A stretch of 43,121 nt of DNA from a virus, in the IMG/VR virus record IMGVR_UViG_3300009183_000147, positions 1-43,121 of that record. One strand, written 5' to 3'. A model generated the notes under the pieces. That model saw nothing but the letters and a program-made list of their open reading frames with translations. It was not told where the DNA came from and searched no databases. Shown here in pieces: positions 13,015-38,166 of this stretch. The stretch's first letter is position 1; each line of letters starts with the position of its first letter. The translations under genes and the position numbers were made by a program.

Positions 13015-14250
13015 TTATCCTATTGTTAACCAGGAAAAAATGTCTTTCCATTTGGTCTTTCTTCTGTAATCGTTGGTGTCAAGATATTGCAACAGACCTT
13101 GTTGTCTTATAAGGTCTGTTTTACATTTGTTTTTTAGTTTAGATACAATGCCATCAAAACTTTCAAGAGTGGTTTTGTCATCCCAAGTTTCCTTAGGTAA
13201 TAAATTATACACAGATTCTAAGCTAGAGGCAAATACAGAGTAATCAAACATAGTGGGATCAAACACACTTTTGTTATTAGGTAGAACCAAATGCATGTAC
13301 CAAAATATTTTTTGTTTTGTACACCATTGATTGTATTTTTGTGCTAACTCGGGCATGCTGGGAATCGACAGTGAAGTTATAGTTGACAATAGGCCGATTC
13401 GAAATTCAGACATTTCGATTAACAACTCCATGTTACGATCAAAAATATCTAACATAAATCCATGCCGTGTGTATTCTTGTGCGGATCCCCAGCAATCGAC
13501 ACTGACTTGGATATCAATTCGTTTCAGCTTATTTTGTTGTTTTAGATCTCTTAGTTTTTTCAATATAGGTTCTATAACCTTGATTGGCAACATAAGGTTG
13601 GTAACCAAATTAAACTCTAGGTCTGGGTGCGGATGTTGTTCAAAATATTCAATCAGCTTCAACACATCAGGTTGTAAGAAGGGCTCACCACCTAAAATTT
13701 GTAATCGTTGTAAGGATAGGCTATGTGTTTCAAGCCATGCCCAAAATTTTGGAACAAGCTCGCGATATTTGTTATCAGTGTATTCAAAGTTTAATTCAGG
13801 AAGTATTGCACCTCCAAACTTTTTATTTTCGGCTTGAATTGATGAACTATGTTTTGCATCACAATAAATGCATGATAGATTACAGGTGTTAGAAAAAAAT
13901 ACTTCTAACACCGCAGGATTAACTACAGTTAACGTATTGTCTTGATCAAGTTCTTTAGGGTATACATTTGGAATTTGATTTTGAAACATACGATCACTAA
14001 TACCTCCGCTGTGTTCAATATCTTGACAATATTCACACCCGTTGCCGGGCCATTGAGATTGTAACATAACACTCCTATCCTGTATTTTAATAGGAGTGTT
14101 ATGAAAGTCTTCAAAATTTTCTGGTATACTAGAAACACTAGCCCTATGACACGATGCGGTAGCACCTTTATTTAAATATAATGTACTCCACGACCATTTT
14201 GACCTACAACTGGTTTGTGAGTTAATCGGGAAGTATTTTTTTAAAGACAT
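13015..14250 (-). CDS. Radical SAM enzyme, copy 1 of 3
   Basis: 411 residues. CNLSCIYC at about 117-124 is the CX3CX2C iron-sulfur motif, and GGEPF about 75 residues on is the SAM-binding motif. The N-terminal 100 residues hold extra cysteines (SCRSKW, SCHRAS, GCEYCQD), possibly a second cluster site. Such enzymes often modify peptides or sugars by radical chemistry; the substrate here is unknown. Start and stop share one base with the acidic gene upstream (TAATG). A perfect 14-bp inverted repeat lies inside the first part of the coding region (see the separate entry). It sits between the uvsX and uvsY genes. Confidence 0.8.
   Translation of the reverse strand: MSLKKYFPINSQTSCRSKWSWSTLYLNKGATASCHRASVSSIPENFEDFHNTPIKIQDRSVMLQSQWPGNGCEYCQDIEHSGGISDRMFQNQIPNVYPKELDQDNTLTVVNPAVLEVFFSNTCNLSCIYCDAKHSSSIQAENKKFGGAILPELNFEYTDNKYRELVPKFWAWLETHSLSLQRLQILGGEPFLQPDVLKLIEYFEQHPHPDLEFNLVTNLMLPIKVIEPILKKLRDLKQQNKLKRIDIQVSVDCWGSAQEYTRHGFMLDIFDRNMELLIEMSEFRIGLLSTITSLSIPSMPELAQKYNQWCTKQKIFWYMHLVLPNNKSVFDPTMFDYSVFASSLESVYNLLPKETWDDKTTLESFDGIVSKLKNKCKTDLIRQQGLLQYLDTNDYRRKTKWKDIFSWLTIG
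14065..14103 (-). repeat. Perfect 14-bp inverted repeat inside the radical SAM gene
   Basis: CATAACACTCCTAT (14065-14078) pairs exactly with ATAGGAGTGTTATG (14090-14103) over an 11-base loop, encoding about residues 49-62. No T run follows on either strand, so it is not an obvious terminator. Confidence 0.75.
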
Positions 14251-17416: not shown

Positions 17417-19447
17417 TTATGATCTAATCATCCCGGACAGTTCTCGCAATCGGTGTAGCACATCTTCTTCCACGTCATCAAACGTTTGAAGTTTGCCAGA
17501 GTGACCATATTGGCCTTGTAACGTTGTGGTTTCTCCCAGAGGTGGGTTGCCGGTTGTCACTGCAACTTCTTCTGCCATATTGCCTAACATTTGTTCGATC
17601 TGCTTGATCCATCCACTTACGTCACTAGATCCAATTTCTTCTACATCACCTACAAAGTCTGCAACTTCGTCAATGGCGGCTGTTACTTTTTCTGGACCGT
17701 ACTTGCTCAACAAATCCGAACGTTGCAGTAAAATTCTACGTGTGATAGCACTGGCCACTGGACTGTCTTCCTGGCCTTCTGCCATTTCAGGCTTGGAATT
17801 ATTCATTCCTGATAGTTCTTGCAAACGAGCTATTGTATCCTGCTCGCCTTCGTACATACTGCCGCATTCCATTAGGCCGTGTTCTGGGCAGTGTTCGCCT
17901 TCAGCAGTGTAGTTGCATGATCCATCTGTTTCTTCTTCGCCAAATGCATCTTGTGCGGCGCTGCCTAGTTTGGCACCAGTCATTGCACCACCTGGACTTT
18001 TTGTCAGTGCGGCACCACCAATGCCACCTACTATTGCTCCAAGCATGCCATCTTGTAACAACTCGTTGTTCATTCCGCCATCAACTGAATATTCTTCATC
18101 ATCTTGTTCAGCTACAGGAGGGGGCGGAACTTCGGCTGGTGCTTCTGCCGGCACAGCAGGTGCTTTGGGCGCAACTGTTGGCGGGGCCAACTGTTCTGAT
18201 TTGAGTGCATCTAACACTATATCAAAATCATCAAATCCTTTACTGGCCATATCAGTGATACGTGCAATAACCAAACTACGGCAGTCAGCATCGGGATCTT
18301 GTTCGGCTAAATCTTGCAGTTGATCAAACAATATGTCATCACCAACCAAACTGTACAACTGTTCAGTTGCATTGGTTGCATCTGCACCAACCGGCAATTC
18401 TTGTGACAATAGAGCAATGAGTTCTTGCTGTTCTTCCGGTGTGTCAGGTGTTGCCCATGTGCCTTCTAATAGGTTGTTAGCCCAGGTTTCAAATATGTTT
18501 GCTTCTTTCATTGCATTTCCTTGTTGTTGTATACGGGCCAAGATAGGTAAGGCCTGTTCAATTCGCGAATCAATTGTTTCTTGAACAAATAGTGTTTTGA
18601 TGTCTTCTATGATCAAATCTTGCTCTGTTATGTCAGCTGGATTCCAATTTTCAAAGTACGTGTTGTAGCCACGTGCGGAGGCCAGTCCTTTAAGAGTTCG
18701 GCTCATTGTGGCATGATATTCGTTTGTTTGAGTTACCAAATTGGCAGTATCGCCTTCAAACACTCGACCTTGACTAGCTCTGCGGAAACGACTCAGCACA
18801 TTGAGTTCTTCAACCATGTTGGCAATATGCTGTCCGCGCATGTCGTATGGTCTGCCGCCATGACGCACATGTTCCACCATAGCCCGGCCACCTGCCAAGT
18901 TACGGAATGGTAACTTGTAACGTTCACCTTCTGCTGTTTCTAAAAACAAACTTTCCACTTGACGGAAACGTGCTTCGTTCACACCCATTGGACGTTTGTG
19001 GCGTATCATTAAGCGTACCGAATCTGGTCCACCATTCCAACTGATGTTCTTTGTGCCGTTCCAACTTTCGTATAGGCCTTCTTTGAGTGCAGCCTGTCCT
19101 TGCATACTGTATTTGAGTCTGTTGATATTTTGACTGCCAAATGTCATGAAATTCTTTGTGGCAAAGTTCTTAAGCTGATGTTGGAACTCGTACCATTCTG
19201 TTTTATCTTCGCTGTCCATGCCGCGGCCAACATTGTCACCACTGAACAATTCCAGTTGCTTATCATCTCCCAGCATCACAACCACTGTGCCGTGATTTGT
19301 GCCGTTTGCAGTGATGAATTCAAAACTGTAAATTTCAGCATCTTCAGCTGTGGGTGCGGCTTTGCCAGAGCTGTCTAGTATTTCTGGGTCAAAGCCACGA
19401 GTGACCAGTAGGTCAAAAAGTTGTTGTCCGGGAGTATTCTGTGCCAT
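17417..19447 (-). CDS. Large late protein of unknown function, probable virion component
   Basis: 676 residues. The first 400 are mostly helical and mixed charge; the middle is Pro/Ala rich (VAPKAPAVPAEAPAEVPPPP), then a Gly/Ala segment (LGAIVGGIGGAALTKSPGG) that looks membrane-interacting or flexible. A cysteine/histidine patch follows (CNYTAEGEHCPEHGLMEC), a possible zinc site. The motif LQELSGM/LRELSGM occurs twice in the C-terminal part, the second at the end. A late box GATAAATA lies 7 bases before the ATG at 19447. Its place right after the large terminase suggests a virion or packaging role, but I cannot name it. Confidence 0.65.
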   Translation of the reverse strand: MAQNTPGQQLFDLLVTRGFDPEILDSSGKAAPTAEDAEIYSFEFITANGTNHGTVVVMLGDDKQLELFSGDNVGRGMDSEDKTEWYEFQHQLKNFATKNFMTFGSQNINRLKYSMQGQAALKEGLYESWNGTKNISWNGGPDSVRLMIRHKRPMGVNEARFRQVESLFLETAEGERYKLPFRNLAGGRAMVEHVRHGGRPYDMRGQHIANMVEELNVLSRFRRASQGRVFEGDTANLVTQTNEYHATMSRTLKGLASARGYNTYFENWNPADITEQDLIIEDIKTLFVQETIDSRIEQALPILARIQQQGNAMKEANIFETWANNLLEGTWATPDTPEEQQELIALLSQELPVGADATNATEQLYSLVGDDILFDQLQDLAEQDPDADCRSLVIARITDMASKGFDDFDIVLDALKSEQLAPPTVAPKAPAVPAEAPAEVPPPPVAEQDDEEYSVDGGMNNELLQDGMLGAIVGGIGGAALTKSPGGAMTGAKLGSAAQDAFGEEETDGSCNYTAEGEHCPEHGLMECGSMYEGEQDTIARLQELSGMNNSKPEMAEGQEDSPVASAITRRILLQRSDLLSKYGPEKVTAAIDEVADFVGDVEEIGSSDVSGWIKQIEQMLGNMAEEVAVTTGNPPLGETTTLQGQYGHSGKLQTFDDVEEDVLHRLRELSGMIRS

Positions 19448-19472: not shown

Positions 19473-21047
19473 TTAACGCAATGTAGCAAAAAATGGCATG
19501 GGTTCTATCATTGTGTCGCCAAAATCACGCATCTGCGAGTCCATTTCTGTGTGATAGTTCTGCAACAACTGCATCATACGTATAGCCAACAGTGTGCTCA
19601 TCACCAAGTCGTCTGTTTCACCGGGTTTGGCAGCATAACTTGTTCCGTGCGCCACAAACGTTTTGAGTTCTGAGACCAAGGGCGCACTGTTTACGGTCAT
19701 TTTTTTGGATTCTACTAATATCTTTAACTTGCTACAGGCCGATAGTTTGCTTTTATTAGTGGTGTTAAACCCCTTGCGGAGTCTACGGCTGCCGCCAGCT
19801 ACAGAGTTATCACTTAAGAAATAGCCTTCAATGTTTTCTTCGCCAAACTCTGCAATAGAGATCAGTGCGGCTTCTCCAATGGTGTTGTTCTCTACTGAGT
19901 AGTAAATGCTTTTGGGATCTTTTACAGTTTCATTAATGTGTTTACATACGTCAGATAAGATACGTATCTGTGCCGGGATAGTGGTTCGATTATGGCGCCA
20001 TTCAGCCACTTGTATGGTAGTATTGGCTTCAAACACCTGTATGGCAGCAGGATCGCCGCCTGTGCCCAAACTTGGATCTAAGGCTACAACATACAGTTTA
20101 CCAGCCTCGGGACGTTTATACCAACGCACTTGTCCTGTTCTATACAATGGTTCCTGCTGACCTGCCAGCTCAACCAAGATAGCCGGTGCAATCAGTGTTT
20201 CATCGTTGATAATGAACTCACAGCCAATCTCTCGGCGGAATCGATCTGTTCCCAACTGTGCTTCCATGCTGGCGCCCCAAGCGTCATCACGGTCCGGATG
20301 CTCTTGCCAGAAACTACGGAATGCTCGAAATCCGTTAATGCCTAGCGGTGTTGGGTTGCCGTATTCATCTTCACACTTGTTGGCGCTTTTCCACAACAGA
20401 GCAAATTGATCTTCGTCTGAATTTGGGGTTGACGTAATAATGGCCTTACCACCAGTTGCCAGTGTGGGACTAATACTGGTCCAAAACTCTTCGGCAATGG
20501 TGGGTCGAACAAACGCAAACTCGTCTGCGTACAGCAGTGAGATACTCATACCACGTCCAGTTGTTTCTGTAGTTGTTGCCGATATAATACGACTGCCGTT
20601 TTCAAAGTCTATTGAGCCTTTATTGTAGCTGGTGACGCCTGCTCTGATATGGTCTGGGCACAGCTCATAAGCAAATCTTATACGTTGCATGATCTCTTGT
20701 GCACCTGTGTATTTGTGTGCCGCAATAAGGATTGTTGAATCTGGTACAAACATTGCATACCATAATAGATACCCAGCCGCTGACGTAGACTTACCTGTTT
20801 GTCGAGGCATCATCGAAATACTAAATCGATAGTTATGATACACATTGATCAATCGTGCCTGATACTCAAACGGATGATACAGCATCTTGCCTTGTGTGGG
20901 ATGTTGTATGTAAAAGAAATGATCCAGGAAGTATGCAGGTCCTGTCACAGGGTCTGCACAGTCCATAAATTCTGTTATTTCTGACTCTGAGAAAGATTGG
21001 CGGCGGTGCGGTGCTTTGATCAGTACGCCTTCTAAACTTTTAGCCAT
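19473..21047 (-). CDS. gp17: Terminase large subunit gp17
   Basis: 524 residues, near the T4 size (610). Walker A is PRQTGKST at 81-88 and Walker B LLYADEF at 171-177. The C-terminal nuclease has the expected acidic residues in VVALDPSLGTGGD, SVENNTIGEA and ETDDLV. It powers DNA translocation into the prohead and cuts the concatemer. The start at 21047 overlaps the SGNH gene upstream by 8 bases and no strong ribosome site is visible, so translational coupling is likely. The small subunit gp16 lies about 7 kb upstream at 27574-28077, separated by late genes, unlike the adjacent arrangement in T4. Confidence 0.95.
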   Translation of the reverse strand: MAKSLEGVLIKAPHRRQSFSESEITEFMDCADPVTGPAYFLDHFFYIQHPTQGKMLYHPFEYQARLINVYHNYRFSISMMPRQTGKSTSAAGYLLWYAMFVPDSTILIAAHKYTGAQEIMQRIRFAYELCPDHIRAGVTSYNKGSIDFENGSRIISATTTETTGRGMSISLLYADEFAFVRPTIAEEFWTSISPTLATGGKAIITSTPNSDEDQFALLWKSANKCEDEYGNPTPLGINGFRAFRSFWQEHPDRDDAWGASMEAQLGTDRFRREIGCEFIINDETLIAPAILVELAGQQEPLYRTGQVRWYKRPEAGKLYVVALDPSLGTGGDPAAIQVFEANTTIQVAEWRHNRTTIPAQIRILSDVCKHINETVKDPKSIYYSVENNTIGEAALISIAEFGEENIEGYFLSDNSVAGGSRRLRKGFNTTNKSKLSACSKLKILVESKKMTVNSAPLVSELKTFVAHGTSYAAKPGETDDLVMSTLLAIRMMQLLQNYHTEMDSQMRDFGDTMIEPMPFFATLR

Positions 21048-21777
21048 GTTGGTAACTTTTCAAGTGGTCAATTATTTGCGCATGTACTCGATGATGACTA
21101 GGAGGACCTGGGTGAGTTAAATCTCTCGATAACCCCAACACAGGATTTCTAAAATCTTCAACGTCAATCACCAGGACAGGAATATCAAGCTGGTGACACA
21201 CTTGTTGTATGGCCAGTTCATTGCGTTGTTTGTCAGCAATGCTGTTGGCGTCAGTGAACCACCAATCGCGAAAAACTTCTTGCACTGTGGCTGTTTGAGG
21301 AAAGGCTGGCGACATCACAGTGCTGATATTGTGTTGATTTATTATTTCAAATCGTTCTCTAAAAGTTGTTTGTAAAATTACAAATCTCGGTTTGATTATG
21401 GGCAGCCAATAGTGAGCCAATCTAAATGCAAGTCCATTGGATGCACCAAACACACCAAAATTATCAACTGGAAGTGAGAGCTCTTTTGAAATTCTCTCAT
21501 GGTACAGCTCATCCACTGGAAGTCCGAGACCTTGAGTAAAACTACACCCAAACACAGCAAATCCGGGCTGAGTCAGATCAATTTCTCTGGACCTGAATCC
21601 TTGAGCATTGTATTGGTATTCTATCTTGTGATCAATCCAGCCGTTCTGAGACAACAACTCACGCTGCAGAGTATTTTTTAAATTTTTATTGTATTCTTGT
21701 TCACTGTCAATACTGCACCACAGCAGTGTTTTGCCGGCATGCTGTTGCTGTACATGACAAGGTGCATTCTCAAACAT
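21040..21777 (-). CDS. SGNH-like hydrolase family protein, copy 2 of 3
   Basis: 245 residues from the ATG at 21777; the frame opens at 21813, but 21777 gives an 8-base overlap with the upstream radical SAM stop. FAVFGCSFTQGLGLP is block I (G-x-S), and DLTHPGPPSHHR near the C-terminus is block V with Asp and His. Between them NFGVFGASNGLAFR fits block II (glycine) and a block III asparagine. The substrate is unknown. The overlap with the radical SAM gene suggests that the two proteins work together. The 3' end overlaps gp17 by 8 bases. Confidence 0.72.
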   Translation of the reverse strand: MFENAPCHVQQQHAGKTLLWCSIDSEQEYNKNLKNTLQRELLSQNGWIDHKIEYQYNAQGFRSREIDLTQPGFAVFGCSFTQGLGLPVDELYHERISKELSLPVDNFGVFGASNGLAFRLAHYWLPIIKPRFVILQTTFRERFEIINQHNISTVMSPAFPQTATVQEVFRDWWFTDANSIADKQRNELAIQQVCHQLDIPVLVIDVEDFRNPVLGLSRDLTHPGPPSHHRVHAQIIDHLKSYQHG

Positions 21778-22906
21778 TGGTGAACTCCGGCCATAACTGC
21801 TGGAACTGTCCATGTTTATCTGTGTGATACTTGGTTTCGTTTAGAAAAATATGATCACGGAATTGTTGTTCAATTCCAGGGCGGGCTTGTGTGACCTTGT
21901 GATACATGTCTAGTGCATTGTCAAAGAACATTTTTTCAGCAGTGGTAGCAATGCCCATTGCATAGAAACGTTCAATCTCGGCAATGGCTTCGGCCGCAAC
22001 TACTGGACCATGCAAGAACGGATCTAGGTATTCAGGCTGAAATAGGTTCTGCCACAGCACTGTAGTTCCAGTGTCTTCTGCAAACTGTCGCAGTTCACAA
22101 ATACGTGTGGCATTGTAGATGTTGTACACAGCATGTATGCCTCCCCACTGGCCCTGTGCGGTCATTAATCCTTTGATCAACCCAAGATTGTGTTTGATCT
22201 GCGACCACTCGGCGCCGTGACGCACATATTCCAATCTTTCACCAATGTTGTCAAAGCTCATGCTCCAGCCAACTCGATTTCGTGTTGCTAACTTTTGAAA
22301 TATTTTGTTGTTTTCAAGTTCGCCACTGAGATTTGTAATCAGTGTAACAATTGCATCTTTTGGTATTACATCTAGCAGTCGATTATTCTCTGGCAGTAAC
22401 AGTGGCTCGCCGCCAACCAATGCCACTTCGTGTATGTGTTCATAGTGTTGTTCAATAAAATCACACACTGCATCATAGTAAGGTCTTGTGCCTGACTTGA
22501 CTGGAATACCTTTTAGGCCAGCCCACTTTGAACTGCAGGCTTCGCCGCAATAGTTACAACTTAAATTACATGTTGTATTCCACCGTACATCTACAATAAC
22601 AGGATAATGATATTCACTGCCAGCAGTGGCATAATCAAACCCAGGATTTACATTGTTGTGCCAGGCCCGCTCAGAGTCTGCACCAAAGCGTTCTGCTTTT
22701 ACACAATTTGAACAATACTCATGAGGAATACCCTGGGACAAACTTGACCGTATTTCAGACATAAGATCACTATTGAGTATTTCAACAATGTTTTGAGTGT
22801 TTAAGTTTCCCAGCATGTTGGGATTACCTGCACAACAGGTTTTAACATCACCACGTGGGTTTATATGTAGGCCACGCCAGGGTGCGGCACAGTAGAAATT
22901 GGACAT
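21770..22906 (-). CDS. Radical SAM enzyme with N-terminal twitch-like domain, copy 2 of 3
   Basis: 378 residues. An N-terminal block CAAPWRGLHINPRGDVKTCCAG with several cysteines looks like a twitch/SPASM-type auxiliary cluster domain placed first. CNLSCNYC at about 113-120 is the SAM iron-sulfur motif, and LVGGEPLLLP is the next motif. Such enzymes modify peptides or carbohydrates. A late-type box TGTAAATA ends 4 bases before the ATG at 22906, and an inverted repeat spans the start. Its 3' end overlaps the SGNH gene by 8 bases. The radical SAM motif is certain; the substrate is unknown. Confidence 0.82.
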   Translation of the reverse strand: MSNFYCAAPWRGLHINPRGDVKTCCAGNPNMLGNLNTQNIVEILNSDLMSEIRSSLSQGIPHEYCSNCVKAERFGADSERAWHNNVNPGFDYATAGSEYHYPVIVDVRWNTTCNLSCNYCGEACSSKWAGLKGIPVKSGTRPYYDAVCDFIEQHYEHIHEVALVGGEPLLLPENNRLLDVIPKDAIVTLITNLSGELENNKIFQKLATRNRVGWSMSFDNIGERLEYVRHGAEWSQIKHNLGLIKGLMTAQGQWGGIHAVYNIYNATRICELRQFAEDTGTTVLWQNLFQPEYLDPFLHGPVVAAEAIAEIERFYAMGIATTAEKMFFDNALDMYHKVTQARPGIEQQFRDHIFLNETKYHTDKHGQFQQLWPEFTNV

Positions 22907-22938: not shown

Positions 22939-23754
22939 TTATTCTGCGTTCTTGCCGCAGCGGGCACGTTTAGCATTAGTTAATGCACCGTAATCAACAG
23001 GCCATTCTGCGCCTGGACTTACTTCACGTGCTTTAGGTGGGTAACTAAACTTAACGCCTGCTCGGCTTTCAATGCTGGAAATCATCATACGGAATTTAGT
23101 TAGATCGTTGCCTAAGTTAACATAAGGTTTAGTGTGCGGAAATGCCCATCCGGCAATTTCACCAGTGGCATCATTGATTACAATTTTATAATAGCCGTGC
23201 GGTACAATAACACCGTTACCGATAAACTCATCACCAGCGCCATAAAATGCGCCAACGTATATGGTAAAAGCCTGGTTTCGCTGTACTGCCCATCCTCTGA
23301 TGGACGTCTCTAATAACTTCCATATTCCCCGATTTAAAGAGCCGTGTTGAGGATACATGTTTGTCATTAAAAAACTTTCGTATTCCACAATCTCACTCCA
23401 ACTTAAATCACCATCTGGTGCCGCATGTCCTTTGTCATAGCCTGTGCCAGCATAGTCATCTGGCTTGGCGCCACCAACAATACTTCTGTCTGCTACAAAA
23501 GCATTTGTACGTGGCCAGCAACCTATTGCGTTTTGTGGTAGTAATGTGTATGCAACATACGCAGGAATCTTAACAGTAGCGTCGTATCCTACCAGGTATG
23601 CTTCGCGGCAAATTGGCTGTGCTGGACGTTGCGTTTGTGCAAATCCATATGGGCTGTGTGCCACGCAGGCCTGTGGCGGCAGTGGGGCTCTTTGTTCCCA
23701 CGCATATGATAAGTTAGTGGCTGCGATCAACAGCGCAAATAATAGTTGTTTCAT
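22939..23754 (-). CDS. Exported non-specific DNA/RNA endonuclease
   Basis: 271 residues. Residues 1-18 form a classic signal peptide (MKQLLFALLIAATNLSYA) with a basic start, a hydrophobic core and an AxA-like end. The nuclease fold is of the Serratia/NUC1 type: DKGH at 107-110 corresponds to the DRGH motif, with histidine as general base, and N141 in the SLNRGIW stretch is the expected metal-binding asparagine. Such enzymes cut DNA and RNA without sequence preference. Secretion would take it to the periplasm or outside the cell. A late-type box AATAAATA lies 5 bases before the ATG, so it is expressed late, at or before lysis. Possible roles are degrading extracellular DNA or excluding incoming phage DNA; neither is shown. 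Confidence 0.85.
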   Translation of the reverse strand: MKQLLFALLIAATNLSYAWEQRAPLPPQACVAHSPYGFAQTQRPAQPICREAYLVGYDATVKIPAYVAYTLLPQNAIGCWPRTNAFVADRSIVGGAKPDDYAGTGYDKGHAAPDGDLSWSEIVEYESFLMTNMYPQHGSLNRGIWKLLETSIRGWAVQRNQAFTIYVGAFYGAGDEFIGNGVIVPHGYYKIVINDATGEIAGWAFPHTKPYVNLGNDLTKFRMMISSIESRAGVKFSYPPKAREVSPGAEWPVDYGALTNAKRARCGKNAE

Positions 23755-24044: not shown

Positions 24045-24431
24045 TTATCGTGGATATCCTTTGAAGCCTTTAACAGGGCTAGTATTATTTACTAGACTGG
24101 GTTCTAGACTGTTTGGTGTGCTTATTTGAATTTTTGCAACAGGTAAACCGGACATTTTTAATGCTTGGTCAATAACTGGCCCAACACTGCCATTGAATCC
24201 AGCAACCACTGCATCTTCGCCAAATGCTGCTTTGGCACTCCAAGCAGGTAGGTTGTTGGTAATGTCATCTGTTCCAGCATCACTACGTGCCCGAGCTAGT
24301 GCTACACCAAATCGATATATTTGATACGGATCCGAGGACTGTACGCCCGGCAACACAAACACATGATTCATAGGATCTGCTTGCTCGGGTGGCAGTGTTG
24401 CTTCTTCTCGAAGAAATTCACGGGCTCTCAT
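24045..24431 (-). CDS. Putative capsid-targeted internal protein A
   Basis: 128 residues starting MRAREFLREEA. This matches the pattern of T4 capsid-targeting sequences (a charged first stretch, then EF[LI]xE), where the prohead protease gp21 cuts after the glutamate of an L-x-E motif. Here LRE would be the cut. The C-terminus ends SPVKGFKGYPR, almost identical to that of the next gene upstream (SPVKGFRGYPR). The two genes overlap by 4 bases. The middle has a helical segment with YRFGVALARARS. A role in the capsid or in delivery into the host is inferred, not shown. Confidence 0.6.
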   Translation of the reverse strand: MRAREFLREEATLPPEQADPMNHVFVLPGVQSSDPYQIYRFGVALARARSDAGTDDITNNLPAWSAKAAFGEDAVVAGFNGSVGPVIDQALKMSGLPVAKIQISTPNSLEPSLVNNTSPVKGFKGYPR

Positions 24432-24799
24432 CTTGGATACCCTCGGAATCCTTTTACAGGACTTTGTTTGTTGGTAGACTCTAATTCTTGGCTACGCAGG
24501 TCACCGTGGTTGAGGTCTTGATGGTCTGAACCCACTGCTTGGAATGCTTTTTCTATCATGTCTTGTTCAACCTCAGTGTAGGGCATGGCCACATTGTAAC
24601 GGCCGGCCCAGGACTCGTGATCTATCTTTGGAACAAATGTGCCATCTGTACAGGCGGCAGCCATCATGACTCGATTGAGTTCGTAAACTCTATCGGCTAG
24701 ATCTTTGTCTCTAAACTTATTAAGTCCAACAGTGGCTCGACTTCTTCGTTGACCAATCTTGCCGGTATGTTTCTCAATGAGAAACTCGTGGGCTCGCAT
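24428..24799 (-). CDS. Putative capsid-targeted internal protein B
   Basis: 123 residues starting MRAHEFLIEKH, with the L-x-E site at LIE, and ending SPVKGFRGYPR. The middle (VYELNRVMMAAACTDGTF, ESWAGRYNVAMPYTEVEQDMI) differs from gene A, so the two proteins share only their ends, as if two distinct domains carry the same address tags. Its start is 2 bases after the 97-residue gene upstream. No late box is seen here, so it rides on an upstream late transcript. Function unknown. Confidence 0.6.
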   Translation of the reverse strand: MRAHEFLIEKHTGKIGQRRSRATVGLNKFRDKDLADRVYELNRVMMAAACTDGTFVPKIDHESWAGRYNVAMPYTEVEQDMIEKAFQAVGSDHQDLNHGDLRSQELESTNKQSPVKGFRGYPR

Positions 24800-24801
24800 G
24801 T

Positions 24802-25095
24802 TTATGCACCGGCAGCGTTGTAAACACTTGACTGTGCAGAACTTGCTGTGCCCAGGGCTGTGGCAGTCACAGTGGTTCCGGCAAGAATGAGTCGGTTGCC
24901 TGCACCAACATAGACTTCTTGTACAGTTCCGTTTGGAACAGTGACCACGTTGGCATACAAGTTACCAACAGGAGAGGCTGACCCTAATGCTGTGGCATAT
25001 ATTTGGTATGTGACATCTGCACTGTTGGCAGCAATAGATGCTTTGTCTGTGGTCCACACAATGTTGCCTGCGGCGTTGATTACTTGAATAGCCAT
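24802..25095 (-). CDS. Small probable virion protein, beta-rich
   Basis: 97 residues, low in charge and rich in Ala, Val, Thr and Gly with repeated beta-type strands (NLYANVVTVPNGTVQEVYVGAGNRLILAGTTVTATA). This composition is common in phage head decoration or tail proteins. GGAAAG lies 8 bases before the ATG. It sits between the AT-hook protein and internal protein B in the late minus-strand run. I do not recognise the family and can only say that it looks structural. Confidence 0.55.
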   Translation of the reverse strand: MAIQVINAAGNIVWTTDKASIAANSADVTYQIYATALGSASPVGNLYANVVTVPNGTVQEVYVGAGNRLILAGTTVTATALGTASSAQSSVYNAAGA

Positions 25096-25098
25096 AGT

Positions 25099-26940
25099 TT
25101 ACTTTCCAAATGTTCGGTATAAGTTCAACAAGTTCTGTTCAACTTTTGCACTTTCTTCCATACTGACTTGTCTACGCAGTTGACTTGCCAGCACCGGAGT
25201 AGTAGATTGGCCTGTGGATTTGGGACCATTCAATCCACCCGAGTATTGCAGTGCGTTGTCACTGGTTTCAGTGTTACTGGGCCAGTTAGGATCGTTTTCG
25301 TCAACCATATTGCAACCGCATGGTGATGAGCCGCATGAACTGCATGATCCAGATTGCTGACTTAGGCCGGCCATCTGTAACAATTCTGCCAAGCGTTCTG
25401 CATCTTCGCCATCAGCATTTACTGTGATGCTTTTGTTGCCAGGATGGCCGTCATCTGAGTTTTGACTCATGTTCACAGTGACACTCATGCCTTCTGTGAT
25501 CAGAGTTTCTAGCTGTGCATCCAGTGTTTCGTAAACACTGCCACCAAACTTGAACTTGCTATTGGACTTTTTAGGCTCGTCTTCTTTGACTTCGTCTTTC
25601 TTGTCATCATACTCAATGTCTTTGGCTACTTTTTTACCGGCTTTTTCGGCCTTATCATCTTCAGCACCACGCTTCTTGCCGTGGATACCATCTTTTTTCT
25701 TTTCATCATACTCGATATCTTTGGCAACCTTCTTACCGGCACGTTCTGCATGGCTATCTTTTTTAGCAGTAGACTCTGCTTCTCTAACTTGTGCGTCGCC
25801 CGACTGTTGATTTTTAATCATTGTCATTGCCGCATACAGCACAGATTCTAAGCGACTGGCATACCCTTGTGGGAATTCACCACCGCGCTGTGCTTGCTTT
25901 GCTATTGCTCGAATGTCAGCAAGGTCGTTATAAATTTGTTGTGCTTGTCCTTGGTCATGGCCTTCTTCCATGTCGCCTTCTTTGACTTTGCGACCGCCTT
26001 TGTGCTTGTATGCTTTGGCAGTTGTACGCTCTGGTCCTTTTTCTGGACCCTTTGGACGACCGCGGCCGCGCTTGTCAATGGTATTACCTTCTGCGTCTGT
26101 TTCTGATCCAACTGAGTTGCCTTGCGCATCAACTCTACGAGTGACAACTCGACCAGTGGCCGTGTGCTTGGTATCGTGTTTGGCACCATGTGTAACATCA
26201 CCAACTCGTGGAGTGTCTCGACGTGGATTTTTGTAGTTTGTAAACGGATTGAGATCTTCCTCTTCGTCCACACTGCTGGTGTCTGTGAATTCTTTACCAC
26301 CTATTTTGAACTTGCCGCCCTTTGGCGTCTTGGCCAAAGCACCAGTAAACGCATTGCCTTCGTCGGCAACTTGTTGTCTGCCACCCAGTGCATTACGCAT
26401 GGCTTCGGCAGCAACGTCGCCCAGCATTTCGTCAACTTCTTTCTTGGCGCCGGCAATTTTGTCAGCAAAAGTAATTTTGTCTACAGGTGGTGCCAGTGCG
26501 GCAAATGATTTTTGCTTGGCAGGTGACAGTTTTTCTTTAACTTGTTTTGGATTAGATTCAGCACCAGGCTTCATACCAGTTTGTGGCATATCCATTTTGC
26601 GTTGCAGGTCACGAATCATGTCTACGTCGCTGCCGTGGCCAACTTTGTTCAGTACAGCGTTGCCGGCTTTCTTGGCCATGCCGCCAACTTTCTTCACCAC
26701 ATCGCCTAGGCCTTCGTCCATGTCTTGCTCTTCTAGTTTGCCGGCCTTGGCCAACTTGGCACGAACAGCACCTGCCACTCGCTCGCCTGCTTCTTTTGAG
26801 CCGTAACGTTCTGCGGCACTTTTGGCAATCTTCTCAAAGTTCTTGCCTGGCTTGCCTTCGTCACGCTCGTTTAACGGTGCGGCTTCTGGTCGGGCAGCAA
26901 TGCCGTCTAGTGTTTTGTTTAGGTTGTGGAAAAAACTCAT
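25099..26940 (-). CDS. Large AT-hook, repeat-containing protein, probable internal virion protein
   Basis: 613 residues, highly charged and largely disordered, rich in Lys, Glu and Gly. The stretch KRGRGRPKGP near residue 290 is an AT-hook, which binds the minor groove of A/T-rich DNA. Two nearly identical segments, AGKKVAKDIEYD[ED]KK, occur 33 residues apart. The C-terminal part carries a cysteine patch (CSSCGSSPCGCN) and the motif EDAERLAELLQMAGL. AAGGAT precedes the ATG. Its surroundings (gp16, capsid-targeted proteins) and its composition suggest a DNA-binding protein packaged with the genome or a head-core protein; this is inference and no function is established. Confidence 0.6.
   Translation of the reverse strand: MSFFHNLNKTLDGIAARPEAAPLNERDEGKPGKNFEKIAKSAAERYGSKEAGERVAGAVRAKLAKAGKLEEQDMDEGLGDVVKKVGGMAKKAGNAVLNKVGHGSDVDMIRDLQRKMDMPQTGMKPGAESNPKQVKEKLSPAKQKSFAALAPPVDKITFADKIAGAKKEVDEMLGDVAAEAMRNALGGRQQVADEGNAFTGALAKTPKGGKFKIGGKEFTDTSSVDEEEDLNPFTNYKNPRRDTPRVGDVTHGAKHDTKHTATGRVVTRRVDAQGNSVGSETDAEGNTIDKRGRGRPKGPEKGPERTTAKAYKHKGGRKVKEGDMEEGHDQGQAQQIYNDLADIRAIAKQAQRGGEFPQGYASRLESVLYAAMTMIKNQQSGDAQVREAESTAKKDSHAERAGKKVAKDIEYDEKKKDGIHGKKRGAEDDKAEKAGKKVAKDIEYDDKKDEVKEDEPKKSNSKFKFGGSVYETLDAQLETLITEGMSVTVNMSQNSDDGHPGNKSITVNADGEDAERLAELLQMAGLSQQSGSCSSCGSSPCGCNMVDENDPNWPSNTETSDNALQYSGGLNGPKSTGQSTTPVLASQLRRQVSMEESAKVEQNLLNLYRTFGK
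25601..25754 (-). repeat. Direct repeat in the AT-hook gene
   Basis: About 54 bases are repeated with changes, near 25601-25655 and 25700-25754, encoding AEKAGKKVAKDIEYDDKK and AERAGKKVAKDIEYDEKK. The spacing is 99 bases, or 33 codons, so the reading frame is kept. Confidence 0.7.
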
Positions 26941-26944
26941 TTTA

Positions 26945-27553
26945 TTATCCTTTAGGGTTGTAGCCTGTTGCTGGCCGGGGTGGACGCTTGATGTTGGTCA
27001 TTGGGCTCTTGTTGTTCATGGGTAAACTGTTTGTGGTCACTGCTGGAGGTGTCCGACCGCCGGCCACTGTGAAGTCACTGCGATAGGTATTTTTCAGCAC
27101 TGCATGGTCTTCTGGAGCAGCCGAATAGTCCTTGTATAAGGCTTTCTGTTCTGCATCCGGTGCCGGATAGTCCGTGTTGGTCAACAGATCTTTATTTTGT
27201 TTTTCAACATCTGCGGCCTCTTTGTCATAGTTGTTTTCGTATGGCACAGTCAACATGCACACACGATTTGGATCAATGCCCAACAGTTGTGCAATCTGAC
27301 GAATCTGTGGTTCAATTGCTGGATACCGGAATTCAACATCCATGTGTGTACAGCTTTCGTTTTCAATGGCCGGAAAGTCTGCTAACCGGACCTGAACAGG
27401 TGACGTTTTTGGGGCAGACATTTTGACCACGTCAAATTGACGAAGTTTTTCTCCCAGTGCCCGAACTAGATCTTTGGGAGTATCACCTGCAATTTTGATG
27501 CGGTAATTGTATACTCTTTCGTTCTCTGCCAGATATTCTTTAAAATGTTTCAT
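26945..27553 (-). CDS. Putative capsid-targeted internal protein C
   Basis: 202 residues. It opens MKHFKEYLAEN, close to the T4 internal protein signal with its EF[IL]AE core and a possible prohead-protease cut after LAE. The C-terminus NNKSPMTNIKRPPRPATGYNPKG shares NNxSP and GY with the ends of proteins A and B. A late box CATAAATA is 17 bases before the ATG at 27553 and AGGGAT stands between. The middle holds DVEFRYPAIEPQIRQIAQLLG. The start signals support late expression; the role in the capsid is inferred. Confidence 0.62.
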   Translation of the reverse strand: MKHFKEYLAENERVYNYRIKIAGDTPKDLVRALGEKLRQFDVVKMSAPKTSPVQVRLADFPAIENESCTHMDVEFRYPAIEPQIRQIAQLLGIDPNRVCMLTVPYENNYDKEAADVEKQNKDLLTNTDYPAPDAEQKALYKDYSAAPEDHAVLKNTYRSDFTVAGGRTPPAVTTNSLPMNNKSPMTNIKRPPRPATGYNPKG

Positions 27554-27570
27554 AATCGATCCCTATATGA

Positions 27571-27578
27571 TATTTATG
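27571..27578 (-). promoter_or_regulatory. Late-type box for putative internal protein C
   Basis: CATAAATA on the minus strand, overlapping the stop codon of gp16. A normal leader with AGGGAT separates it from the ATG at 27553. Confidence 0.6.
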
Positions 27579-28077
27579 CTTGTTTATTCTTTTGGTCTCT
27601 TGTGCCAATAAGTCGATCCAACAAATCATTGCGACTCAGCACTTGACCTTCGGCAGTTTCTGTAGATTCTTGATAGTCGTCATCTGTGCGTTTTTCTCGG
27701 TCAAGATCCAGTTTGGCTTTTTGTAACTGCAACTGAATCATTTTGAGTTTCTTGTTCATCTTGGCTGTTTTGGCAGTGAGTGCATGGCCCAGCATGGCAC
27801 CTGCCACTGCAAAGATTTCACTGGCATAACGACTGTCGATTTGCATGCCAAGGTCCATTAGATCATCAAATGTTTCTGTGGCTTTTTGTGCTAGTTCGTC
27901 CATGTCACCATCACTGGCTTCTAGATCGCGCACACCGGGTAAGGCAGCATCAATCTTGTCAATGGCATTGTCAATTTCAGTTATGGCATATTGTGTGGTG
28001 GCAATATCCGGCACAGTTTCGTCTGTGTCGGCGGTGCTAGACGGTAAGTCGAAGAGGTCTTCTAATTTTTTAGTCAT
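27574..28077 (-). CDS. gp16: Terminase small subunit gp16
   Basis: 167 residues, near T4 gp16 (164). The long coiled-coil-like central helix (VAGAMLGHALTAKTAKMNKKLKMIQLQLQKAKLDLD) is the typical DNA-recognition and oligomerisation part. The N-terminus is acidic and the C-terminus polar. gp16 forms rings that control gp17 activity and initiate packaging. The gene's ATG lies 4 bases after the late box GGTAAATA, with no ribosome site between. It is followed by a 20-base gap and then putative internal protein C. Confidence 0.85.
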   Translation of the reverse strand: MTKKLEDLFDLPSSTADTDETVPDIATTQYAITEIDNAIDKIDAALPGVRDLEASDGDMDELAQKATETFDDLMDLGMQIDSRYASEIFAVAGAMLGHALTAKTAKMNKKLKMIQLQLQKAKLDLDREKRTDDDYQESTETAEGQVLSRNDLLDRLIGTRDQKNKQA

Positions 28078-36383: not shown

Positions 36384-37157
36384 TTAACCGATTACCCAGC
36401 TCAACGGTTGCGAGCCATCCACATAGTTTTTAAGATCTAACAGCAGTGCTTCCATCTGCGCTGTGGCTTCGCTTTTCATTGCGGCACCGTTTAAGGTTCC
36501 GCCGCCTTGTGGACCAGCAATGGTGCCAAATTTCTCACGTGCTTCACCAATGATCATTTTGCAGTTGGCCACCATGTAGTCACGAATCCATTGTGAGATT
36601 TGAAAGTCACTCAGCAAGTTAAACTCGGGTTTTAAATTGTAGGTCCAAAGTAGCACATTCTCGCCAGTGCCTTTTGGGTCACGGATAATCTGTAATTTCT
36701 TGGTAACTGGATTCCAGGTAAAGTTCATGTAGCCGCCAAACATACGTGCGGCCAGTTCAACATATTGGCTGTAGAAGTCGTAAGTGGCCAGGCCGCCTGC
36801 CACGTTGAAGTTCATTAGATAAACGTTGACACTGGCTTGTGAGAACGGATCAAAATTTGACGAAAACGGACCAGCCGAATCGCCAAACGTTCTACGGAAA
36901 ATCTGTCGAACCTGTATGGTTTCTTGGGGCAAGGTGTAGATGTTCACATCTTTGACCAACTCCATAAAGGTATAGCTTTCTTCATACGCACCCTGAGCAC
37001 GTTGGCGATACACACCTATTGTTTTTTGGTATGCAGCTTCGTAATGCTCTGCATCCAGTTCAAGGTCAATGATCTGTGAAGCCAGTTGTAACTGCACATA
37101 TTCAATGAGATTTTGTTTCAGTGTGTCAAGACTTGATTGTTCTTCAATTGCCATCAT
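36384..37157 (-). CDS. gp13: Neck protein gp13-like
   Basis: 257 residues (T4 gp13: 309). The pattern DLELDAEHYEAAYQKTIGVYRQRAQGAYEESYTF, then PFSSNFDPFSQASVNVYLMNFN and FYSQYVELAARMFGGYMNFTW, agrees with cyanophage-type gp13. gp13 joins the portal vertex to the tail. Late box CATAAATA is at 37180-37173, inside the end of the radical SAM gene upstream, with CGGAG before the ATG. It overlaps that gene by 14 bases. The partner gp14 lies 2.6 kb away on the other strand, unlike in T4. Confidence 0.8.
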   Translation of the reverse strand: MMAIEEQSSLDTLKQNLIEYVQLQLASQIIDLELDAEHYEAAYQKTIGVYRQRAQGAYEESYTFMELVKDVNIYTLPQETIQVRQIFRRTFGDSAGPFSSNFDPFSQASVNVYLMNFNVAGGLATYDFYSQYVELAARMFGGYMNFTWNPVTKKLQIIRDPKGTGENVLLWTYNLKPEFNLLSDFQISQWIRDYMVANCKMIIGEAREKFGTIAGPQGGGTLNGAAMKSEATAQMEALLLDLKNYVDGSQPLSWVIG

Positions 37158-38166
37158 AAACTCCGTTGTTTATATTTATGGTCTTAATCGAATCTGCTTT
37201 AATGTTAAATGTACTAGTTGAATTCTTTGCTTTGTTAAACGACACTATGGTATATGCATCTACATTTTCTGGACAAAACTTGCACTGTTCAACGGGATCA
37301 TCAATTCTATCAATGAATTGTTGACCCCGGGTGTCAAACTCCTCAATTGTAAGTGGTTTGTATCTGCGTAATCCACTCAGCAAGAAACGGTCGTGCTCGG
37401 ACAGATCAAGAGGATATTGCTTATCAAATTCTGGCAACAGTCCGGCAGGACCACATTTGTATAACTTGGCCCAGATAAAATGATAACTTTGAAACTTTTG
37501 AAAACCACAGTTTTCGTGTGCCACAATGGGGTCACTTTGATGCAGTGTGAGCTGTCCTTGATCATTGGTCACTATGGCTGATTTACTAAACTCGGTATAC
37601 ACCCAAACATGTACATGCACACCGTTGCTGTCAACAAACGCATAGTCTGCACCCCAGGTTGCTCTGGTGCCATCGGACTTGAGTGCCTCTTTGCCTTCAT
37701 AATATGTTATGTCGCCTCTGAGAAACTTGCGTATCTCTTCAAAGTACTGTGGTAAATCATTGATGTTATGCACACTGACACCTATCCAGTTACCATCTTC
37801 TTCTCGGTAGTTTAACAGTGCTTCGTACAGGCCAGGCACATGGTTCAGGCGAGTTCCGTTGGTTAGTACATTTACTTTTTTACCCCACAAGCGATTGAGT
37901 CCAATGATCCAGTCGCATATGGTTGGATTTAACAGTGGCTCACCACCTAATATGGTTACTCGTTGCAGTCGGACTTTTGTGGCCCATTCAGTGTACTGAG
38001 ATTCATAGTCACTCCAGCGTTGCCAACCTTTGAAGTCGTAGTCATTGAATCTATTGCATTGTGGACAAGTTAAATTGCAAACATTGGTTATGTAAAACTC
38101 AATGTTTGGAATGTATATTCTTGGATCATCTGGGTGCTCGTCTGGAAAACGTGTAGGATATCGCAT
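37144..38166 (-). CDS. Radical SAM enzyme, copy 3 of 3
   Basis: 340 residues. CNLTCPQC at about 30-37 is the CX3CX2C motif, and ILGGEPLLNP follows about 45 residues later. Cysteines in the second half (ENCGFQKF, KLYKCGPAG, VEQCKFCPENV) could hold an auxiliary cluster, as in SPASM or twitch domains. The substrate is unknown. It starts 7 bases after the 378-residue gene and its 3' end overlaps gp13, so it lies between a late neck gene and two probably early unknowns. The reading frame contains the late promoter of gp13 near its end. Confidence 0.8.
   Translation of the reverse strand: MRYPTRFPDEHPDDPRIYIPNIEFYITNVCNLTCPQCNRFNDYDFKGWQRWSDYESQYTEWATKVRLQRVTILGGEPLLNPTICDWIIGLNRLWGKKVNVLTNGTRLNHVPGLYEALLNYREEDGNWIGVSVHNINDLPQYFEEIRKFLRGDITYYEGKEALKSDGTRATWGADYAFVDSNGVHVHVWVYTEFSKSAIVTNDQGQLTLHQSDPIVAHENCGFQKFQSYHFIWAKLYKCGPAGLLPEFDKQYPLDLSEHDRFLLSGLRRYKPLTIEEFDTRGQQFIDRIDDPVEQCKFCPENVDAYTIVSFNKAKNSTSTFNIKADSIKTININNGVYDGN
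37173..37180 (-). promoter_or_regulatory. Late promoter box of gp13 inside the radical SAM gene
   Basis: CATAAATA on the minus strand, 15 bases before the ATG at 37157, with CGGAG in the leader. Confidence 0.6.

Follow-up and report, generated by a model that had tools for sequence, protein, structure and literature searches.

According to the accessible part of PMC9026906, the first 10 residues of the T4 internal protein IPIII are needed for its incorporation, with residues 4 and 7 of this tag acting in targeting and residues 8 and 10 in processing, and the gp21 protease cleaves after L/I-X-E. The same source describes the T4 internal proteins (IPs) as basic and not highly conserved, and T4 Alt as a protein that is packaged, ejected and processed at both ends. 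Here we examine three open reading frames (ORFs), encoding proteins A, B and C, in the IMG/VR virus record IMGVR_UViG_3300009183_000147, whose entire 43,121 bases form the window analyzed. The window phage is T4-like and belongs to a jumbo-phage group; the nearest isolated-phage relatives of its large terminase are jumbo Pseudomonas phages, e.g., PA5oct (51% identity). A first-pass annotation had listed the three ORFs together with their end sequences, and all are present as given, on the minus strand and within the interval bounded by the gp16-like and gp17-like genes: A at 24045..24431 (128 amino acids, aa), B at 24428..24799 (123 aa, overlapping A by 4 nucleotides at 24428-24431) and C at 26945..27553 (202 aa). 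We propose that A, B and C are probably head proteins that would enter the prohead core by means of an N-terminal capsid-targeting sequence, that a gp21-type protease would then cut this tag off after its Glu, and that a conserved C-terminal tail most likely provides a second docking element.

Protein C opens with MKHFKEYLAE (27524..27553, minus strand), which matches in register the MKTYQEFIAE with which both T4 IPIII and IPII begin. Protein A opens with MRAREFLRE (24405..24431, minus strand), a proposed capsid-targeting sequence that would be cut after Glu9, and the alignment places MRAHEFLIE of B (24773..24799, minus strand) beside it. The tags thus take the form MRA-x-EF-[ILV]-x-E in A and B and mostly MK-x-F-xx-Y-[LI]-x-E in C; like those of IPII and IPIII they are about 10 residues long and keep the same order of aromatic, aliphatic, x, Glu. 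In an alignment of 130 proteins of A, B and a third family, D, Glu5 and I/V/L/M at position 7 are invariant, Phe6 occurs in 128 and Glu9 in 127; Val at position 7 (32/130) makes the site broader than the T4 rule of L/I. In the C family, whose members number 56 sequences, all 20 variants listed read Y[LI]xE. In a near-twin contig of 346,856 bases (G001), whose A and B proteins are identical to those of the window, MR[AS].EF[ILV].E opens six of 1594 ORFs against a mean of 0.0 in 200 shuffles, and a looser pattern that also covers the ORF at 26945 opens seven (shuffle mean 0.16, maximum 2), which confirmed that the N-terminal likeness exceeds chance. The assignment of the three starts as T4-type capsid-targeting sequences, made in the first-pass annotation with an L-x-E-type site, is well supported by these comparisons once the site is read as [ILV]-x-E, and head targeting through the tag is likely.

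The same tag heads many different bodies, as it does among the T4 IPs. Scanning IMG/VR DNA for MRA-x-EF-[NTN]-x-Glu gave at least 120 stretches, a sample rather than a total, and the same scan with Asp replacing the last Glu gave 31 in all, so that the ratio of Glu to Asp is a lower bound. Among the matches listed, 127 of 130 with Glu open at least 50 aa, 113 of these with an upstream stop no more than 40 codons away, compared with 20 of 31 and 8, respectively, with Asp. Position 7, at which NTN permits Phe, is Phe in 0/127 of these Glu ORFs versus 7/20 of the Asp ones, the Asp version appearing to match mostly by chance. Grouping by blastp after tag removal, which left out nine of the 130 matches (short, or with the upstream stop far off), placed 121 tagged ORFs in 31 clusters, although single-member clusters may conceal remote homologues; 61 of the ORFs listed belong to the A/B family. 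Separately, a variable tagged family (e.g., MKSF-x-DYL-x-E) was seen at loci L026, L034, L056, L061, L064, L065, L081, L101, L102, L114, L116 and L117 sharing a C-terminal end of the type ARHNCDNPGPRTKARYWSCRAW, which also terminates a tagged protein of different build in L120.

A T4-type prohead protease (PF03420) is encoded in five of eight related records, the twin contig included, where it matches Peptidase_S77 (E 1.5e-25) and the PHROG head maturation protease (E 1.8e-56). The capsid protein gp23 of the twin (E 8.1e-98) reads YLKE-NASAGSTAAGNIATL, and a tagged 66-aa protein, 62030, reads MRAQEFIKE-NASVGATSSGSVATV. In alignment, residues 39-100 of this gp23 pair with 9-69 of the mature T4 chain, and a cut after LKE-42 would fall about 12 residues past the point at which that chain begins. 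Among the locus ORFs, a pattern drawn from the sequences following LKE and IKE recovered 62030 and the gp23 of five relatives (one of them G001) and nothing else; in PA5oct its only matches were gp23 and EST35_0203. In the latter (L154 42322-43818), which is annotated from electrospray ionization tandem mass spectrometry (ESI-MS/MS), the internal ETASAGASSAGGIASVAKP resembles gp23 of the same phage after LVE. Directly after 62030 lies the gene of a ferritin-like protein (PF00210, E 4.6e-20; L126 5220-5660, G001 62220-62660).

At the other end, A closes with a tail running from S-L-E to SPVKGFKGYPR (24048..24110, minus strand) and B with one from S-Q-E to SPVKGFRGYPR (24431..24493, minus strand); the closing motifs differ by one K/R change and are conserved in relatives, with S108, E110 and S118 present in 130/130 sequences. 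Protein C ends in NNKSPM...GYNPKG (26948..27016, minus strand), and S-P-hydrophobic stands near the end of 56/56 members of its family. The consensus is S-x-E ... N-x-x-S-P-V-xx-F-x-GYPR for A/B and N/G/D-x-K/T-S-P-M for C. The agreement of all three ends that had been read from the window therefore stands for A and B, while the third end agrees only in N-x-K-S-P-M, a short match that is nonetheless restricted to a small number of families. GY-x-P of C was considered as an equivalent of the A/B end and rejected, as it is not conserved and many C relatives read G-A-N-P.

The full tail SPV-xx-F-x-GYPR is found in 43 of the 61 tagged A/B members listed and in none of 60 other tagged proteins listed, 56 of them complete. 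Among the 18 A/B members without it, 14 are complete, of which 13 keep S-P and one has S-S, the altered ends often reading KKNKYGV; some A/B ends are truncated at contig borders. The shorter core is more widely shared. A census of 1995 unique proteins, taken from greedy non-overlapping ORFs with a minimum length of 60 aa in place of annotated genes, placed S-P-[VLMIF] close to the C terminus in 137/149 A/B proteins, 56/56 C proteins and 5/5 proteins from the interval between portal and protease, versus 26/1785 others; with flanking context the counts were 103/149, 54/56, 5/5 and 3/1785. The interval protein is acidic, 255 aa long, and occupies the position at which T4 has core genes 67 and 68. 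BLASTP revealed no similarity between it and T4 gp67, and it had no PHROG match, so that "core protein" is a positional label only; one relative matches phrog_15696 (virion structural, E 1.2e-4). Since this protein closes with the S-P-hydrophobic core too, we take the C-terminal tail to be most likely a docking element; such an additional docking role at the C terminus is plausible. A looser end pattern in PA5oct picked out four of 516 ORFs, one being the portal-protease interval protein and the other three short and probably not genes.

PA5oct offers a possible link between the C family and the virion. C has a homologue there in EST35_0202 (tblastn E 1e-4; profile E 2.4e-18 with a set of eight sequences), EST35_0203 is next in gene order, and EST35_0151 lies between portal and protease with S-P-L near its end; all three carry the record note "structural protein, ESI-MS/MS". 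The likeness is partial, in that EST35_0202 has neither L-x-E nor an S-P end and tblastn revealed no A or B in PA5oct, of which the pieces examined reach 284,600 of 286,783 bases. In database searches, C had no Pfam match and a single PHROG match (phrog_14802, virion structural, E 0.19), and A and B matched no family in either Pfam or PHROGs. The bodies differ in this respect from the T4 IPs. The structure model of A (predicted local distance difference test, pLDDT, 80.4; predicted template modelling score 0.53) reached a Z of 2 or more with none of five PDB chains, and its best viral structure match was an uncharacterized phage protein (E 4.2e-3).

A number of observations weigh against our proposal. 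The protease and capsid genes were taken from the twin contig, the window itself having neither, and EST35_0202, a homologue of C, is the sole bearer of a virion annotation that touches the three families, with none for A or B. The tag Glu is missing from the C relatives of PA5oct (MKSFRDYYDAS) and Phosso (MKNFYEYLSSV), and the S-P motif is absent from their ends. In T4, Asp at tag position 10 stops processing and leaves targeting unaffected (PMC9026906, accessible part), so a packaged yet uncut EST35_0202 is possible. Four PA5oct proteins have a tag-like start, of which EST35_0150 and EST35_0238 carry a mass spectrometry note and EST35_0271 and EST35_0422 do not; four proteins are named in the accessible text on MIJ3 proteomics, the C homologue not among them (PMC6892783). 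In a collection of isolated phages, tblastn with A and B gave no convincing relative. The C-terminal motif was defined after inspection of the families, so that the counts measure specificity and are not a blind test, and A and B do not count as independent cases; in G001 alone a looser end motif occurs in 5/446 genes (shuffle mean 1.5, maximum 5), which is weak alone, and the motif is absent from the ends of T4 gp68, gp22 and gp21. Finally, the isoelectric point (pI) of mature A is 5.18 in the window (family median 5.3) and that of mature B 8.78 (family median 6.9), compared with 9.02-9.65 for the T4 IPs, the IPI value being based on an assumed cut site. Mature C, at 7.88, likewise falls short of the basic body of a T4 internal protein.

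The most serious rival explanation is that A, B and C stay behind as structural parts of the prohead core or of the mature head and are not injected. We consider its chances even; it diverges from head targeting as proposed above solely over what becomes of the proteins, and the odds of the two overlap. The A/B cluster and C are conserved and syntenic, each occurring in 75 of 78 loci (several of which represent one contig retrieved with two separate queries), A/B range mostly from acidic to neutral, and the C-terminal motif is common to A/B/C and the protein at the core-gene position. A/B differ from the T4 IPs in charge, in conservation and in their place between gp16 and gp17, and A/B and C alike in having a conserved C-terminal motif. 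The acidic mature A and the conserved, syntenic family speak against a plain "internal protein" reading, and conservation and charge point rather to a role in the head or core, with ejection of A, B and C into the host being the least certain step. On the other hand, the same type of N-terminal tag is found on enzyme folds without obvious structural use. In 9/22 loci, though not in the window, B is directly followed by the gene of a roughly 300-aa protein that opens MRAKEL[IL]NE; 12 of 14 aligned members show a tag-like start immediately ahead of the domain, and the remaining two carry an inserted domain, one starting MRASEFITE and the other lacking the Glu. The modelled neighbour (pLDDT 78.8) is predicted to have an ADP-ribosyltransferase fold, with KptA at Z 10.6 and DarT at Z 8.3-9.1, although the best Foldseek match was E 5.5e-3 and none lay at 0.001 or below. 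The arrangement is reminiscent of T4 Alt, but among solved folds KptA and DarT come closest, and the likeness to Alt is by description only. An ORF of L171, tagged from its second Met, contains a GH19 domain (E 3e-13). As candidate injected effectors, such variable tagged neighbours rank above the conserved A/B.

It is tempting to speculate further, albeit tentatively, that head targeting in T4-like jumbo phages relies on a two-ended address, in which the removable N-terminal tag is combined with a C-terminal N-x-K/T-S-P-hydrophobic docking motif common to cargo and prohead core protein. Cargo would then be bound at both ends during head formation; in the same speculative vein, the tail itself might be removed at S-x-E.

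Alternatively, the alike ends of A and B may be a remnant of common ancestry, with no tag function at the C terminus. This bears on the first-pass view that A and B are different cargo sharing tags and that their middles differ. Identity between A and B is 72.7% in the N-terminal tag, 70.3% in the last 11 columns and 15.2% in the middle, so the middles do differ in sequence; yet profiles of the two middles alone match at 97.6% probability (E 3.9e-12 in a single comparison), and A and B are therefore, by profile comparison, tandem paralogs with homologous middles, A downstream and B upstream, with B directly upstream of A in 97/108 A loci. The idea of unrelated cargo consequently fails for this pair, and the full C-terminal tag is confined to the A/B family, which also suits descent. 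The D family is tagged at both ends and present in two loci, and its middle matches that of B at 73% but not that of A (0.7%). Gene conversion was rejected as the main cause of the alike ends, since tag DNA from different genomes is almost as similar as tag DNA from one genome (0.726 within versus 0.711 between, and 0.682 versus 0.667, for 66 unique pairs; the slight within-genome excess reaches nominal significance, with p 0.013 and 0.044). The steep drop in identity from ends to middle, together with the S-P-hydrophobic core in the separate C family and at the core position, makes a mere remnant of ancestry unlikely.

Still less probable is that the C-terminal tail acts as another cleavable propeptide, removed by a cut following S-x-E. 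Both residues are invariant, phiKZ-type head proteases cut after S/A/G-X-E according to the accessible part of PMC5694885, and Alt offers a T4 precedent for processing at both ends (a phiKZ head protein is also dealt with in PMC9123017, as far as its accessible text extends). However, the lineage's own sites, LKE in gp23 and those of the N-terminal tags, resemble [ILV]-x-E, close to the T4 L/I-X-E and not to S-x-E. Equally improbable is an N-terminal motif serving another purpose, such as localisation in the infected cell, given the T4 register in C, the Glu and aliphatic preference expected of the head protease, and the resemblance of 62030 after its tag to the capsid protein after LKE.

The gene block starts with the gp16-like small terminase gene (27574..28077, minus strand), whose product matches phrog_445, terminase small subunit, at E 0.0011 and has as its top match phrog_16202, of unknown function (E 1.4e-13); C, which forms a family separate from A/B, follows directly. 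Between C and the B/A pair lie genes for a 613-aa protein (25099..26940, minus strand; cluster in 77/78 loci) and, upstream of B, a 97-aa protein (24802..25095, minus strand; 74/78 loci). The 613-aa cluster has no tag-like start, and its gene-order position matches that of PA5oct EST35_0203, to which no sequence similarity was detected. The block ends with the gp17-like large terminase gene (19473..21047, minus strand). Between the terminase genes, 22939-23754 encodes a DNA/RNA non-specific endonuclease (PF01223, E 6.1e-35) whose start looks signal-peptide-like by eye, and in 33/78 loci a thermonuclease-like protein, also named by eye, replaces or joins it in the interval. Three radical-SAM-like proteins, recognized by eye from cysteine motifs, are encoded at 21770-22906, 37144-38166 and 13015-14250, one of them inside the gp16-gp17 interval. 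After the terminase, 17417-19447 encodes a 676-aa protein; EST35_0206, in the same post-terminase interval of PA5oct, is annotated ESI-MS/MS, the likeness being positional.

The N-terminal tag is readable from sequence and could therefore be used to list candidate packaged proteins, enzyme-like ones included, in uncultured T4-like jumbo phages. The C-terminal signature, which the first-pass annotation had considered new, has no description in the accessible parts of the open-licence literature searched; that claim holds in altered form, for the shared core across families and with the full tail restricted to A/B. As the literature examined describes, in its accessible parts, an N-terminal packaging signal only, the C-terminal motif, if it is a true prohead docking signal, would constitute a second packaging signal in T4-type head assembly.

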